IMG/VR virus record: IMGVR_UViG_3300028275_000046 | Coordinates: 1 to 30,091 of that record | Reading direction: 5' to 3' (one strand) | Length of the DNA: 30,091 bases | Source: a virus | Shown: positions 2,916-7,564 of the stretch, in pieces | Position numbering within the stretch: the first letter of the stretch is position 1 | Layout of the letters: each line of letters starts with the position of its first letter | Translations under genes and position numbers: made by a program | Notes under the pieces: generated by a model | Databases searched by the model: none | Seen by the model: the letters and a program-made list of their open reading frames with translations, nothing else | Told to the model about the DNA's origin: nothing

Positions 2916-4529
2916 TTATAACCTCCTTATTGACATAACAGAACTAACTATATTTCCTACTAAAATAACAGGGACTACCACCTCTTGAACCTTTTCTCTT
3001 TGGTCATCTGTCATATCTTTACCCCATTCAGATGGGCTAAATACCTTATCAAAATCTATATTTGTTAATGTTCCTAACGGATCAGATAAAAATTGATCAG
3101 CCTGTGCTTCTGTAATAGCATCTGCTACAGTGTATGGCATTGGAGCATCTGCATTTTGTTCTGCCTTGTCAGCAAATGTTGCAATAGCAATAGCAACTGC
3201 TGGGTTATCTTTTGCTGATTTTGCAAGAATTTCTACTTCATTTGACTTTACACCAAGATTTTTTGCAACCTCAGCCTTTGCTTCTTCTGTTAATGCCAAC
3301 AATGTATTTCCAATTGCAGCCATTTGATCCGCTGTTAGTTTAACTATCTTGTTATCTTTGCTTGTAAGATTAGCAATAACTCTGCTTAAATCTTCAGTGG
3401 TACCCTCGCCTTGTTCTGGAACAAGATTTATGATAGTATCTTCTTGTGATGGTTCTTCAGAAGGTTCGTCAAGAGTTGGCTCTGGTTCAGGAGTTGAATT
3501 TAGATCTGTATCCGTTGGCTGAGGTAAAGGCTCTTGTGAAGGCTCTGGAGTTGGATCAGTCTCTTCATCTACCCCATCTGTTATATCAGGGCTTGGAGAA
3601 GGATTGGGATTTTCTGGTTCAGTTTGTTCTATATCATCAGGGAATCTTGGATCCTCTGGAGTAATTATTTCTGGCTCAATCTCTATATCTGGTTCTTGTG
3701 TTGGTTCTGGAGTTGGTTCTGGTGTTGGAATTATAACCTCTGGAGTTGGATCTGGCTCAGGCACTACAGTTGACTGAGCAGCAGCAATAGCATTTGCAAT
3801 TAATGATGCAGTTACTCTAGCCTCTTCTTGAAATGCTATTTCTTCTTGAGTTGGTCCAGTTGGTGTTGGGCTAGGCTCTGGAATAGGTTCTGCAGACAAA
3901 GTTGGGATTGGTTCTCCTGCTTGTATTTGTGTAGCACCCCACTCTTCAAGAGAAACTATTTGACCACTATGAAGCCTTACTCCTGTTCTTAAGTTAGGAT
4001 ATTCTGGACCTTGATAACTATAGGCTACAGAAATACCACCAGTATTTGTAATAGCAACAATAATATTAATATTACTTGGAGTAGGGGCAGACCATTGTCC
4101 AAATGGAATTACTTCTAGATCTAATTGAAATCCGCCTTCAGAATAAGATATGTTAAGAGTGTCTGGTGCGTTATACCATCCTGAAACCCAATCCATAGAA
4201 TAAAGAGATATAGATGGGGTATTTGGATACTGCCAATACGTATTGTCTGGTTGTCCAAATGTAATTACAGAATTAGTTGTTGCATAAATATTTGAGTATT
4301 GAACTCCATCAAACGTAATTGTTGTTGCTATAGGTATTTGATAAGAGGTATCATCTCCACCGCAAGTATCCATTGTGTGTACAGTCGGAACTTCATCACC
4401 ATTATACGCTGCTGCAATAGTTTGTGATTCAATATAATTTACACAGGTTGCATATGCGTTTTCTGGAAATGTTAGCAAACCACTTAAAGCAATCCCTGCC
4501 ACTGCAATTATGCGTAGGAATTTATTTAT
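2916..4529 (-). CDS. Large secreted surface protein with Pro/Glu linker and C-terminal membrane segment; probable AUA start
   Basis: The first conventional start (GTG at 4500-4502) would cut a signal peptide in half. Nine codons upstream in frame lies ATA at 4527-4529, seven bases below a perfect AGGAG. From there the protein (537 residues) begins with a full signal peptide, NKFLRIIAVAGIALSGLL, cleaved near NAYA. Residues 29-205 look like a beta-rich globular domain with a Cys pair; about 205-365 is low-complexity Pro/Glu/Thr with many PEP and PTPEP units; about 370-510 is helical. A hydrophobic stretch (VVVPVILVGNIVSSVM) followed by IRRL ends the protein and looks like a membrane anchor. This is the layout of an exported protein tethered to the membrane that spans the wall with a stiff linker. 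No known family is recognised. It has its own candidate promoter. Alternative: the ATA is an ATG altered by mutation or assembly error. Confidence 0.75.
   Translation of the reverse strand: MNKFLRIIAVAGIALSGLLTFPENAYATCVNYIESQTIAAAYNGDEVPTVHTMDTCGGDDTSYQIPIATTITFDGVQYSNIYATTNSVITFGQPDNTYWQYPNTPSISLYSMDWVSGWYNAPDTLNISYSEGGFQLDLEVIPFGQWSAPTPSNINIIVAITNTGGISVAYSYQGPEYPNLRTGVRLHSGQIVSLEEWGATQIQAGEPIPTLSAEPIPEPSPTPTGPTQEEIAFQEEARVTASLIANAIAAAQSTVVPEPDPTPEVIIPTPEPTPEPTQEPDIEIEPEIITPEDPRFPDDIEQTEPENPNPSPSPDITDGVDEETDPTPEPSQEPLPQPTDTDLNSTPEPEPTLDEPSEEPSQEDTIINLVPEQGEGTTEDLSRVIANLTSKDNKIVKLTADQMAAIGNTLLALTEEAKAEVAKNLGVKSNEVEILAKSAKDNPAVAIAIATFADKAEQNADAPMPYTVADAITEAQADQFLSDPLGTLTNIDFDKVFSPSEWGKDMTDDQREKVQEVVVPVILVGNIVSSVMSIRRL
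3438..3905 (-). repeat. Coding low-complexity Pro/Glu/Thr region
   Basis: This is the DNA for the Pro/Glu/Thr/Ser-rich linker of the large secreted protein. On the plus strand it shows as many imperfect copies of words such as GGCTCTGG, GTTGGTTCTGG and GGAGTTGG. The copies are irregular in spacing, and the repetition is explained by protein composition. Such regions often vary in length between relatives. Confidence 0.7.
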
Positions 4530-4563
4530 GGGGGCACTCCTATTTAATTGTTTAATTATACAT

Positions 4564-4572
4564 ATTATATCA
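4564..4572 (-). promoter_or_regulatory. Extended -10 promoter, TGATATAAT
   Basis: On the minus strand TGA-TATAAT (hexamer 4564-4569) lies just below the terminator of the preceding gene. The start point would be near 4557, giving a leader of about 28 bases with AGGAG before the proposed AUA start. A second TATAAT follows at 4554-4559. No convincing -35 is visible because the upstream side is occupied by the terminator T-tract. Confidence 0.5.
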
Positions 4573-4573
4573 T

Positions 4574-4607
4574 GATAAAAGAAAAGAGCGCAGATTTCTC
4601 TGCGCCC
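4574..4607 (-). terminator. Intrinsic terminator
   Basis: On the minus strand a perfect 7-bp stem GCGCAGA/TCTGCGC with a GAAA tetraloop (4588-4605) is followed by TCTTTTCTTTTATC. It lies 20 bases below the stop of the secreted Ig-like/coiled-coil gene and is the only clear terminator found in the window. A T-rich tract also lies on the plus-strand side, so it might act in both directions. Confidence 0.85.
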
Positions 4608-4627: not shown

Positions 4628-5758
4628 TTACTTAACAAGTGCAACTTTTGCTTTTGGATTAGCCTTATTCCACTTAACAATAAGTGCATTGAATGACTTC
4701 TTTAGTGCAGCAAGAGCCTTAGCGTTTTCTGCCTTAACTGCATCTAGTTCTGTCTTAGCAGCAGCCTGTGCATCAGCAAGAGCCTTGTCTGAAGCAACCT
4801 TAGCGGTTACGGCTTCAGCCTTTAACTTTGCAATTTCTGCGTTAGCCTTCAATAGTTCTGCATCAGAAAGAGCCTTTGCATCAGCAAGAGCCTTTGCAGA
4901 AGCAGCCTTTTCTGCAGTAAGTGCAGCATTAGCAGCATCACGAGCAGCAGTCATTGATGCAAGTTCAGTTGCAAGATCACGATTTGCAACTACCTTTGAT
5001 GCTGTTAGAACTGGAGTAGCAAAACCTGCAATTGCAGACTGTGCTGTAACAGAAGAACCAAGACCAAAAATAGCAACAGCATTGCCAGAGGCAGCCATTG
5101 TTACCTTAAAGTCAGCAGTTCCAAAGTTTGTTAGTCCAGAACCAGTTGTTGCAGTTACTGTATCAAGTGTTCCATTAGAAACAGTTGCAGTAAGAGCAAC
5201 GCCAGTTACTTTATTACCAAACACGTCAGTAGTTGTAACTGTATAAGTTTTTTGTGTTCCTGATGCAGCGGTATCATCACCAGCAACAGATACTGTATTT
5301 ACGTTACCAGCAGTACCCTGAACATAATATGTTGTAGTTGTACCCTGATTTGTAATTACAACAGTACCAACAGCAGTAGTCTTTGTAAAAACAAAGAATG
5401 TTGCAGTTGTGCCTGTACCAGTTGCAATGGTTGCAGAAGCAGAACCAGCAGATGCTGTTACTGGAGCAGCAGATGTTGCAGTAGCAAGAATGATTGAAGC
5501 ATTAGTTGCTGAAACTGTAACTACTGTGCCAGTATCTACTGTAGCAACAAACTTAAGAGCGTCTGTTGCATCTACAGAGTTATCTGAAGGAACTGGAAGT
5601 GCTACGGCTGCTGTTGTTGACAAACCATTGTTTGTCGGAGCAGAACCATTAACCGTGATTGCCACTGTCATTGGGGCAGCACTTGCAGGTGTTGCGACAA
5701 TTGTGCTCAGTGACAGGGCTGCAACCACGCCAAGAGCGATCTTCTTAAATGAATTCAT
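4628..5758 (-). CDS. Secreted Ig-like and coiled-coil surface protein (moron-like)
   Basis: A 376-residue exported protein. Signal peptide: MNSFKKIALGVVAALSLSTI, cleavage near PASA (residue 27). The mature part is very rich in Ala, Thr and Val. About residues 165-225 resemble a bacterial Ig-like (Big_1/invasin) domain, with VTTTDVFGNKVTGVALTATV. Residues 259-355 form a long Ala/Lys/Glu coiled coil with repeated KALADAKALSDAE-type units, followed by a basic end (KWNKANPKAKVALVK). AAGGAG precedes the ATG. The gene stands alone between its own promoter (overlapping the terminase end) and an intrinsic terminator. It uses GCA/GCT-rich codons and looks less AT-rich than its neighbours. It resembles a host cell-surface protein more than a virion part, so an acquired accessory gene is likely. 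A virion decoration protein is the alternative, though the signal peptide argues against it. Confidence 0.82.
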   Translation of the reverse strand: MNSFKKIALGVVAALSLSTIVATPASAAPMTVAITVNGSAPTNNGLSTTAAVALPVPSDNSVDATDALKFVATVDTGTVVTVSATNASIILATATSAAPVTASAGSASATIATGTGTTATFFVFTKTTAVGTVVITNQGTTTTYYVQGTAGNVNTVSVAGDDTAASGTQKTYTVTTTDVFGNKVTGVALTATVSNGTLDTVTATTGSGLTNFGTADFKVTMAASGNAVAIFGLGSSVTAQSAIAGFATPVLTASKVVANRDLATELASMTAARDAANAALTAEKAASAKALADAKALSDAELLKANAEIAKLKAEAVTAKVASDKALADAQAAAKTELDAVKAENAKALAALKKSFNALIVKWNKANPKAKVALVK

Positions 5759-5781: not shown

Positions 5782-5810
5782 TTTATATTAGTTTATATTG
5801 ATTAAGGTAA
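5782..5810 (-). promoter_or_regulatory. Candidate promoter TTACCT-N17-TATAAA
   Basis: On the minus strand -35 TTACCT (5805-5810) and -10 TATAAA (5782-5787) are 17 bases apart. They overlap the last codons and stop of the large terminase gene. The leader would be about 17-20 bases and carries AAGGAG. The -35 matches the consensus at four of six positions. Confidence 0.45.
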
Positions 5811-7564
5811 TCCTCAACCTCGTCGGGGATTTCCTTAGTATCTAATTCTACCATAGCCCTTTGCTTCTCTGCAAGTCGGGTAGCAGAACTCCATGTATGA
5901 ACCTCAATCTCAAGATTAGAGTCCCTACTGGTGTGAGATATTGCTCCAAATACCGCCCCACAAACGGCATCTGCCAAGTCCTTAGATTTTTTTCTTGGGT
6001 GATCTACACGATTATTTTTCATAATCTTTAGTTCACTCATTTCCTCAAGAAGTAAAGGAATCATAGGCATTGCAATTCTTTCTTCATATATCATCATTGC
6101 TAGGTCTTCATAATGTTTTTTAGCAACAGAAACAGTATCAGTTCTCATTCCTACCGCTTTTAACTCCTGCTGAATATCAAATGATTGCCAACGGTCAAAA
6201 GAAACTGTACCAATATTAAATCCTTCTCTGCGTAAATTCATAATCCATTTTTTAACTTCAGATAGGTCTACTGGACCTTCAACCTTTGGTTCCCACCATG
6301 CAACTGCGTCCACAACAACAATTGGGGCAACCTGTTCGTAATCTTTAATTACCTGAATGTTCACCCAGCGTTCAACATGTGCAATTGCTACTGCACACTT
6401 ATCGTGCTTTTGTGCAAGGTCAGCATGAATATAATAAGTTTTTTCTGGATCTGGCTTAAAAGCAGGATCAAACCTCCTGTGAGAATCCAGTGGATTTCTC
6501 AATGTCATACATTTTTCTAACTTCTCTTTTTGTTTGAAGAAAGCATCAGATGAATATGTTGGGGTACATAGGAAACGCATCATGGCATCTCCTAAATCTG
6601 TTAAAAATGCAATCTTAAAATCATCAATCTTTCTAGTAGGATTTACTTCCCATGTAGGTCTTTTAAGGGCAAACATTCTAGGATATTTATAGGATAAAAT
6701 ATGATCTTCTTCCCATACTATTTCAAACTCATTGTCTGGTCCTTCTGGTAACTCTTCATTAATAACAAACTTATGTCGTCTTTCTATTACTTCTTTGTCC
6801 ATGATTACATCGTCATACCGTTTTGAAATAAAGTCACCGTTATAGCGGGGGAATGAAAGAAGAACTACCTTTCCTAAATCTGGAAAACGAGAATCTACTG
6901 TACCTCTAAATGCTTTGTATATATTGTCAGCAGTTTTACCTTGATCGTTTCCTGTTCCTACTTCTGTGGCAAAACCAGAAATTTCATCCAGTACCGCCAT
7001 GAATAAATTAAGACCTTCATGTGATTCACGCTCAGAGTGACCTGAGTAAACAGTAATAGACTTATCAAAACTAATAGAATTTACTTTTGGATCATATTTA
7101 CCAGCAAACCATGGAGACTTTTCAATCTTGGTTTTAAAGCCTTTAAAGAAAACATTTTTAGCCTGCTCTGCGTTAATTGCTACGTTAATAATGTCTATGG
7201 CATCTCCACTGGGTTTACCGTAATATCTTGCTGGGTCCTTAAGGCATAATAACTTATACACAACGTAAGCACAAGCAACAGTACTAACAAAATCTTTTCC
7301 ACTGCCTTTGCCAAGTTGGAGGATAATTTCATTTTTGGTATATTTAGCATAGTGTTTATCTCCTTGCTCTGTACCCATTAGCATTTGTAAATCTTCTTTG
7401 CGATATATCTGACTCATTGCCTCAACAATGTCATACTGGATATTAGACAATGGTGGTTGACCTAAATAATCTAGAGACTCAACAAATGTTTTTACATCTA
7501 CAGGTGTTTGTTCAAACTGATTATCCTGTAATGCCTCTAAAAAATCATTGAACATTGTGGACAA
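5783..7564 (-). CDS. terL: Terminase large subunit
   Basis: A 593-residue packaging motor that cuts concatemeric DNA and pumps it into the prohead. ATPase half: Walker A GKGSGK (85-90), Walker B AVLDE (Asp193, Glu194) and a coupling motif near LLSFPR (235-240). Nuclease half (RNase H-like): Asp382 in YIHADLA, Asp457 in VSFDRW and Asp529/Asp532 in KDLADAV. All expected motifs are intact. Two starts are possible: TTG at 7562-7564, with GGAG 12 bases away, or ATG at 7553-7555 three codons later; both overlap the preceding gene. The gene follows the replication block, far from the tail genes, so in this phage packaging genes are not next to the tail and presumably not next to the head genes. Confidence 0.95.
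   Translation of the reverse strand: MSTMFNDFLEALQDNQFEQTPVDVKTFVESLDYLGQPPLSNIQYDIVEAMSQIYRKEDLQMLMGTEQGDKHYAKYTKNEIILQLGKGSGKDFVSTVACAYVVYKLLCLKDPARYYGKPSGDAIDIINVAINAEQAKNVFFKGFKTKIEKSPWFAGKYDPKVNSISFDKSITVYSGHSERESHEGLNLFMAVLDEISGFATEVGTGNDQGKTADNIYKAFRGTVDSRFPDLGKVVLLSFPRYNGDFISKRYDDVIMDKEVIERRHKFVINEELPEGPDNEFEIVWEEDHILSYKYPRMFALKRPTWEVNPTRKIDDFKIAFLTDLGDAMMRFLCTPTYSSDAFFKQKEKLEKCMTLRNPLDSHRRFDPAFKPDPEKTYYIHADLAQKHDKCAVAIAHVERWVNIQVIKDYEQVAPIVVVDAVAWWEPKVEGPVDLSEVKKWIMNLRREGFNIGTVSFDRWQSFDIQQELKAVGMRTDTVSVAKKHYEDLAMMIYEERIAMPMIPLLLEEMSELKIMKNNRVDHPRKKSKDLADAVCGAVFGAISHTSRDSNLEIEVHTWSSATRLAEKQRAMVELDTKEIPDEVEDYLNQYKLI

Follow-up and report, generated by a model that had tools for sequence, protein, structure and literature searches.

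Non-AUG codons, and no AUG, at the predicted start of a probable surface protein gene in a sampled phage family

Can a large phage gene be translated from AUA? The question is raised by a viral record of 30,091 bases (IMG/VR IMGVR_UViG_3300028275_000046; "the window" here means this whole stretch), in which an open reading frame (ORF) of 537 amino acids on the minus strand has ATA at the place where a start codon is expected (Table 1). AUA is among the rarest of natural start codons, and single cases are easily blamed on error. The ATA follows the Shine-Dalgarno (SD) sequence AGGAG after seven nucleotides (4536-4530), and the next codons are AAT AAA TTC CTA CGC ATA ATT GCA GTG, the last at 4502-4500. 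Between the in-frame upstream stop and the ATA there are 29 codons, and none of them is ATG, GTG or TTG. Read from the ATA, the protein opens with INKFLRIIAVAGIALSGLLTFPENAYA-TC, which by eye is a signal peptide, and the GTG falls inside its hydrophobic core. The original prediction, which proposed an AUA start here, had placed the SD, the spacing, the ATA and the frame open to the stop at 2916 exactly. It had also claimed that the GTG is the first normal start and would cut off the basic N-region with part of the core, that no ATG, GTG or TTG lies in frame near the ribosome site, and that a signal peptide is read from the ATA; all of this was borne out, the last by eye. Its two options were translation from AUA, perhaps at low level, and a mutated ATG or an assembly error. 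Comparison with relatives supports the first.

Relatives were collected from viral contigs by a protein scan in which the ATA-started sequence was the query and the best 80 of 295 relatives were taken, by added scans with other members (best 80 each), and by a DNA-pattern scan for the C-terminal motif EWGKDMTDD, of which the matches listed were used. Together these gave at least 148 distinct ORFs, so that 149 rows, window included, entered the screen, which 130 passed and 19 did not. A row was kept only if the start was preceded by an SD of at least 4 nt and followed by a basic residue and a hydrophobic core, and ATG, GTG and CTG were among the allowed candidates. Eighteen of the dropped rows had no 5' end in the stretch, and the other, L074, had a frame break (relatives are designated by L numbers). 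The 130 rows collapse to 106 distinct contexts (-20 to +60). At five sites with two successive Ile codons (L036, L040, L050, L056 and L354), the second codon, ATT, was chosen over ATA or ATC by homology; both are non-AUG.

In the 106 distinct contexts the start is TTG in 54, ATA in 28, ATT in 22 and ATC in 2. ATG, GTG and CTG were each found as the start in none of the 106. Thus, 52 contexts, that of the window among them, have a non-canonical AUA, AUU or AUC start, and TTG accounts for the rest. Intact relatives from the best-80 scan have ATA, ATT or TTG at the homologous position, and a near-cognate start is retained down to approximately 53-55% protein identity. When matches were retrieved by the DNA of the signal-peptide codons, ignoring the start, the ATA module gave ATA in 27 of 27, and the ATT module gave ATT in 40 of 41 and ATA in one (L494); ATG was at the site in 0 of these 68 matches, which overlap the first set. 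ATA is one transition away from ATG; the site varies among ATA, ATT and ATC, and ATG is never seen. The conservation of the site is read directly from the aligned sequences, and the original observation needs widening: it concerns a trait of the sampled family, not a single odd gene. In the dropped row L074 (the same contig as L478; 3828-3890), ATA is at the site and the frame breaks after the signal peptide, which is either real or an assembly fault.

Several features indicate that the region between these codons and the next canonical codon is translated. In 39 of 54 TTG and 2 of 28 ATA contexts the 5' limit of the start is set by an in-frame stop standing immediately before it. On the 3' side the start is bounded in 9 of 22 ATT contexts, where no canonical codon is met in frame before codon 50. 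A canonical codon with an SD of its own occurs within codons 2-36 in only 4 of 106 contexts; an in-frame canonical codon upstream of the start occurs in 6 of 106, none with an SD. Codons 1-22 of the ATT/ATC class show 48 synonymous and 32 nonsynonymous changes, an omega-like value of 0.25, as expected of coding sequence. Out of frame, a GTG at 4537 of the window was considered as an upstream start and rejected, since it reads GTG-CCC-CCA-TAA and stops at once. ATG in any frame is found within -15 to +6 in 8 of 106 contexts. In three loci of the ATT class (L036, L040 and L070) a short mini-ORF begins with ATG in another frame and either fits between SD and ATT or overlaps the latter; coupling to it could help a weak start there.

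The start codon is weak, and the signals around it are not. In 103 of 106 contexts an extended -10 promoter-like element, TGNTATAAT, ends 21-39 nt 5' of the start. TATAAT by itself is found in 105 contexts, the remaining one being cut short; in shuffled sequence approximately 14% would be expected. All 106 have an SD of 4 nt or more at a spacing of 6-11, as selection required an SD; at least 5 nt of AAGGAGGTGA are matched in 96 contexts and 4 nt in 10. The gene thus combines a promoter-like site of its own, a short leader and a strong SD with a weak start codon, as far as comparison of sequences can tell. A terminator-like stem precedes the unit in 28 of 28 ATA-class contexts and in 10 of 78 others.

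RNA folding adds a further layer in some leaders. In the 43 rows of the class called TTG-1, a hairpin forms just before or into the SD, with a mean z score of -2.70 and 38 of 43 below -2. For 33 of 37 distinct leaders, 96.1% of cells are paired against 76.3% in shuffled alignments, and covariation is 0.595 against 0.232 (0/500); slid versions score far lower, and the test favours the structure because it was derived from the same alignment. The covariation, seen directly in the comparison, includes plain pair swaps, e.g. U-A 16 to A-U 15 at one pair. Half of the SD stretch, AAG or TAG, is taken up by the three outer pairs. In the ATA module, a predicted hairpin lies in the coding sequence, where positions +1 to +50 have a mean z score of -2.56, with 23 of 29 below -2, and 90.2% of cells are paired over 17 sequences. 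Codons 4-12 of this module (4494-4520 in the window) are almost invariant even synonymously, unlike codon 13 onward, which may reflect either the hairpin or a recent spread of the module. Some ATT leaders (L029, L258 and L429) have a fold that pairs the SD, and in the TTG-2 leaders L332 and L344 bases beside the SD pair with codons 4-6.

The leaders also appear to move. Mapped on trees that are short, quick and partly unresolved, the start-codon label switches 11 times when the C-terminal part is used (95 rows) and 15 times with the mature ectodomain (64 rows). From these changes, the leader with its signal peptide appears to travel relative to the rest of the gene, that is, leader modules appear to be swapped between phages. 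The ectodomain is exchanged as well: the beta-rich type with two cysteines, as in the window, is replaced by a coiled coil plus PA14 above a similar stalk and anchor (PA14, Pfam PF07691, in L356 at E 8.3e-6). By sequence, the coiled-coil and PA14-like type is seen in L356, L354, L332, L359, L392 and L429, with the Pfam match in L356 only, and L429 has an Ala/Lys/Glu-rich stretch ahead of a Pro-rich one. A non-AUG start accompanies every module seen.

From these observations we infer that AUA is used, that the level is low and that there is a reason for it. The frame 2916-4529 is probably translated from AUA, with selection for weak initiation of a surface protein; we put the probability of this reading at roughly 0.8. 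The AUA would be used by ordinary SD-guided initiation, the initiator fMet-tRNA mispairing at the third base of the codon. Selection would hold initiation weak, so that a well-transcribed mRNA yields only a small and constant supply of an exported surface protein with a stalk and a C-terminal anchor. Too much of it would load the Sec system or the membrane of the infected cell, or put the protein on display at the wrong time. The low level suggested in the original prediction may be judged from Staphylococcus aureus, where AUA and AUU reporters gave approximately 10% of AUG in poor medium and ccpN up to 30% in rich medium (PMC13009471). In an actinobacterial host, initiation factor 3 (IF3) would be expected to repress the AUA, AUU and AUC members, as it does sigR in Streptomyces, and TTG-1 leaders may be throttled likewise by their hairpin at the SD. 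It is possible to go further and regard the leaders as interchangeable throttle modules, each made of an extended -10, a 5' or start-site hairpin, a strong SD, a non-AUG start and a signal peptide, placed before a variable surface protein. Selection would then disfavour AUG throughout the modules, since the protein has to appear at low level or at a set stage; some modules would achieve this with IF3-sensitive near-cognate codons and others with hairpins that occlude the SD. This extension is tentative, and we hold it somewhat short of an even chance.

Neighbouring genes served as controls. The upstream neighbour of 376 amino acids, also with a signal peptide, starts with ATG in 64 of 64 distinct relatives, and a gene of 136 amino acids at the same loci has its ATG aligned with residue 1 in 94 of 103 and 1-3 codons earlier in the other 9. 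The controls were limited to these two genes; N69, N70, the CHAP gene and the gene at 901-1422 were set aside.

Several results weigh against our reading. The terminase large subunit (TerL; 5783-7564, minus strand) of the same phages starts with TTG in 40, GTG in 15 and ATG in 2 of 57 distinct relatives, so that non-AUG starts, in 55 of 57, occur elsewhere in these genomes; AUA, AUU or AUC was seen at the aligned TerL start in none of the 57, and in the window the TerL start overlaps the end of the preceding gene. The SD rule itself calls near-cognate codons on small neighbours (9 of 117 for N69, 46 of 101 for N70 and 45 of 90 for CHAP) and on the 901-1422 gene (8 of 71); in the examples inspected on the small neighbours an ATG was close by. 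The rule is therefore unsafe alone, and the case rests on conservation, stops and missing canonical codons. In two ATA sub-classes the omega-like values over 12 codons are 0.57 and 0.74, weak values because the DNA there hardly varies. The sample consists of best-80 lists and the matches listed, and rarer AUG members could have been missed. The contexts are related, falling by eye into about four leader modules, so that independent cases are far fewer than 106. Covariation in the ATA-module hairpin is weak, 12 of 500 shuffles being as high. The nine SD-pairing ATT leaders as a group do not go beyond shuffles (mean z -1.50, 1 of 9 below -2), other ATT leaders of the L016 type give nothing clear (mean z -0.86, 2 of 15 below -2), and the TTG-2 class has no significant fold in the leader alone or in the coding start alone (0 of 10). 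Finally, UUG is reported not to be repressed by IF3 (PMC5472188) and 54 of 106 contexts have TTG, so IF3 is not a logic shared by the family; the property shared would be weak initiation.

What else could keep AUG away from this site? The start may be a switch instead of a constant throttle, start codon and hairpin responding to the ratio of IF3 to ribosomes, to temperature or to a phage or host factor, and so timing the display. Precedents for such a response are the GTC start of sigR, repressed by IF3 in Streptomyces (PMC5472188), and ccpN, whose AUA efficiency rises from approximately 10% to 30% with the medium (PMC13009471); in addition, the covarying TTG-1 hairpin pairs half of the SD, and some ATT leaders have SD-pairing folds. 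However, the hairpins differ between modules, and ATT leaders as a group fold no better than shuffles. We regard a switch as possible but rather unlikely. An improbable explanation is that the start codon is kept for a constraint on the RNA or DNA, such as a hairpin base or an operator, with weak initiation as a by-product. It would fit the position of the AUA at the base of the ATA-module hairpin and the near-invariance of codons 4-12 noted above, but a third-base G would keep the ability to pair with U, and in the ATT and TTG folds examined the start codon is mostly unpaired and AUG is absent there too.

Translation might begin instead at the downstream GTG (4502-4500), the 5' part being untranslated or acting as RNA. 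This GTG is a legal start and is conserved in both ATA sub-classes, being codon 10 in 17 of 18 members of one and codon 11 in 10 of 10 of the other. A start there would lose the conserved Lys/Arg N-region, and the same idea meets the scarcity of SD-preceded canonical codons within codons 2-36, the ATT contexts without a canonical codon before codon 50 and the coding-type substitution in codons 1-22 of the ATT/ATC class. It is thus very improbable.

Special decoding, by a phage initiator tRNA with another anticodon, by RNA editing of the AUA or by an altered code, was considered as well. Genes for tRNA are carried by 9 of 10 large relative records. A tRNA-Ile(TAT), which reads AUA, is found in L448 (956-1108) and L452 (1501-1725), beside tRNA-Met(CAT) in tRNA clusters. 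Initiator tRNAs carry a G-C-rich anticodon stem. The tRNA type scan covered 15 of the 30 fetched loci, anticodon stems being judged on the first 50 letters of each gene, and the two tRNA-Ile(TAT) and six tRNA-Met(CAT) genes inspected lack such a stem and look elongator-like; a phage-coded AUA initiator tRNA was rejected as a candidate on these grounds. Moreover, the window has no tRNA gene, and the AUU, AUC and UUG members would each require another device, which leaves special decoding hardly credible. The original prediction's other option, which would mean a recent change from ATG in a single phage or a faulty assembly, has in its favour that AUA starts are rare and that ATG is one transition away. 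The same ATA, however, stands in four further contigs (L002, L003, L004 and L023, letter-identical to the window at the start site over the stretch compared) and in all 27 of the ATA-module matches found by downstream DNA, and ATG in relatives, which the original prediction named as refuting an AUA start, is found in none of the 106 contexts, so that the probability of this option is negligible.

Translation from AUA thus remains the preferred reading, and the protein so produced would, by eye, have the features of an exported one. Behind the signal peptide come the ectodomain, the stalk, a helical domain at the C-terminus and then an anchor with an RRL tail; together the signal peptide, the stalk and the C-terminal helix with RR suggest a surface-anchored protein. 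The C-terminal helix (508-536) was modelled at low confidence. The full-length model is poor (predicted local distance difference test, pLDDT, 55.5), and a structure search with it matched nothing. The model of the ectodomain matches two uncultured phage proteins in BFVD, A0A6J5NEV5 and A0A6J5P6J9; it had no PDB match at E 0.001, with middling VIA-align rows (best Z 4.4), and the ectodomain against PDB sequences gave nothing better than E 0.32. At 1e-3, the window protein matched 0 PHROGs and 0 Pfam families, and sub-threshold hits to DUF5438 came from 48 of 56 members, the best with E 0.0062.

Table 1. Coordinates in the window of the features discussed
Feature	Position	Strand	Basis or remark
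Whole ORF from AUA, 537 amino acids	2916..4529	-	Translation; 46-row alignment with many invariant columns
C-terminal hydrophobic helix and RR tail, probable membrane anchor	2919..2981	-	By eye
EWGKDMTDDQREK motif before the C-terminal anchor	2991..3029	-	Kept even where the ectodomain differs
Pro/Glu/Thr-rich stalk, approximate limits	3405..3902	-	Sequence; model mostly pLDDT <50
Ectodomain, residues 28-209, beta-rich, two invariant cysteines (C29, C56)	3903..4448	-	Alignment; model pLDDT 74.9
Signal peptide, residues 1-27, cleavage after AYA	4449..4529	-	By eye
Predicted RNA hairpin, codons 1-15, base at start codon (ATA module)	4485..4528	-	Folding
GTG, first canonical in-frame codon (codon 10)	4500..4502	-	Judged not to be the start
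AUA start codon (proposed)	4527..4529	-	Sequence; relatives
SD sequence AGGAG	4537..4541	-	7-nt spacer to AUA
Extended -10 promoter-like element TGATATAAT	4564..4572	-	TGNTATAAT in 103/106 distinct contexts
Stem-loop GCGCAGA-GAAA-TCTGCGC, then T-rich tract, terminator-like	4588..4605	-	Separates upstream gene from the 537-aa unit
Upstream neighbour, 376-aa signal-peptide protein	4628..5758	-	Control gene, ATG start in relatives

The gene sits between the terminase with the 376-amino-acid gene on one side and, on the other, small membrane or lipoprotein-like genes (by eye) with a CHAP endolysin. The 376-amino-acid neighbour is Thr/Ala-rich with a coiled-coil-like end, by eye, and has no Pfam or PHROGs match. 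At 1-666, on the minus strand, a subtilase-like protein (Peptidase_S8) with a signal peptide by eye is cut by the end of the window. The terminase large subunit is 53.7% identical to a Streptomyces phage terminase, and the order RecA-like, Cas4-type exonuclease, RuvC-like resolvase, terminase is common to the present phages and the Streptomyces phages Riptide and Jay2Jay, which we take to be BE-type phages; Riptide differs in having HNH, tRNA and other genes after the terminase. From the terminase similarity and the gene order, this is likely an uncultured phage with an actinobacterial host. No relative of the 537- or 376-amino-acid protein was found in genome_contigs by scans seeded with short exact peptides, which is a weak test, and the phages collection held no DNA relative and no relative of the 537-amino-acid protein.

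Weak starts used for control have been known in cellular genes. The infC gene starts with AUU in E. coli, AUC in Streptomyces and AUA in S. aureus (PMC5472188; PMC13009471), and it resembles the phage gene in its non-AUG start, which in infC serves control through weak initiation and may do so here. It autoregulates because its product is IF3, whereas here the product is a predicted exported phage protein behind apparently interchangeable AUA, AUU, AUC and UUG leader modules. An actinobacterial precedent is Streptomyces sigR, a gene with a conserved non-canonical start, an extensive ribosome-binding site and repression by IF3 (PMC5472188). It encodes, however, a cellular sigma factor and starts with GTC, and the dependence on IF3 was tested for sigR and is only expected for the phage gene. 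In S. aureus, ccpN and citZ start with AUA and cvfC1 with AUU, and ccpN and cvfC1 share with the phage family an extended SD and conservation across species (PMC13009471). These are cellular genes, and the accessible text of that report describes no exchange of non-AUG leader modules. Borrelia pncA/BBE22 is similar in that a real AUU start was missed by databases and a truncated protein annotated (PMC13398362); it differs as a plasmid-borne bacterial enzyme, for which the available part of the source describes no family-wide avoidance of AUG. A literature search, with most subscription journals outside its scope, found no phage family with conserved AUA or AUU starts. Among single genes, an internal AUU start is known in T4 gene 26, and pcnB reportedly starts with AUU.

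Conserved weak starts are thus established for cellular genes such as infC, sigR and ccpN, and their spread over apparently swappable leaders of a probable phage surface protein is new within the literature searched. For annotation the consequence is practical: a procedure limited to ATG, GTG and TTG would leave the AUA, AUU and AUC members with incomplete signal peptides or none, and their export would go unrecognised. With AUA, AUU or AUC in 52 of 106 contexts and AUG in none, the family offers a natural test of why weak starts persist, with many near-cognate sites standing beside AUG-started neighbours in the same contigs. Its avoidance of AUG suggests that evolution keeps the production of this protein slow.

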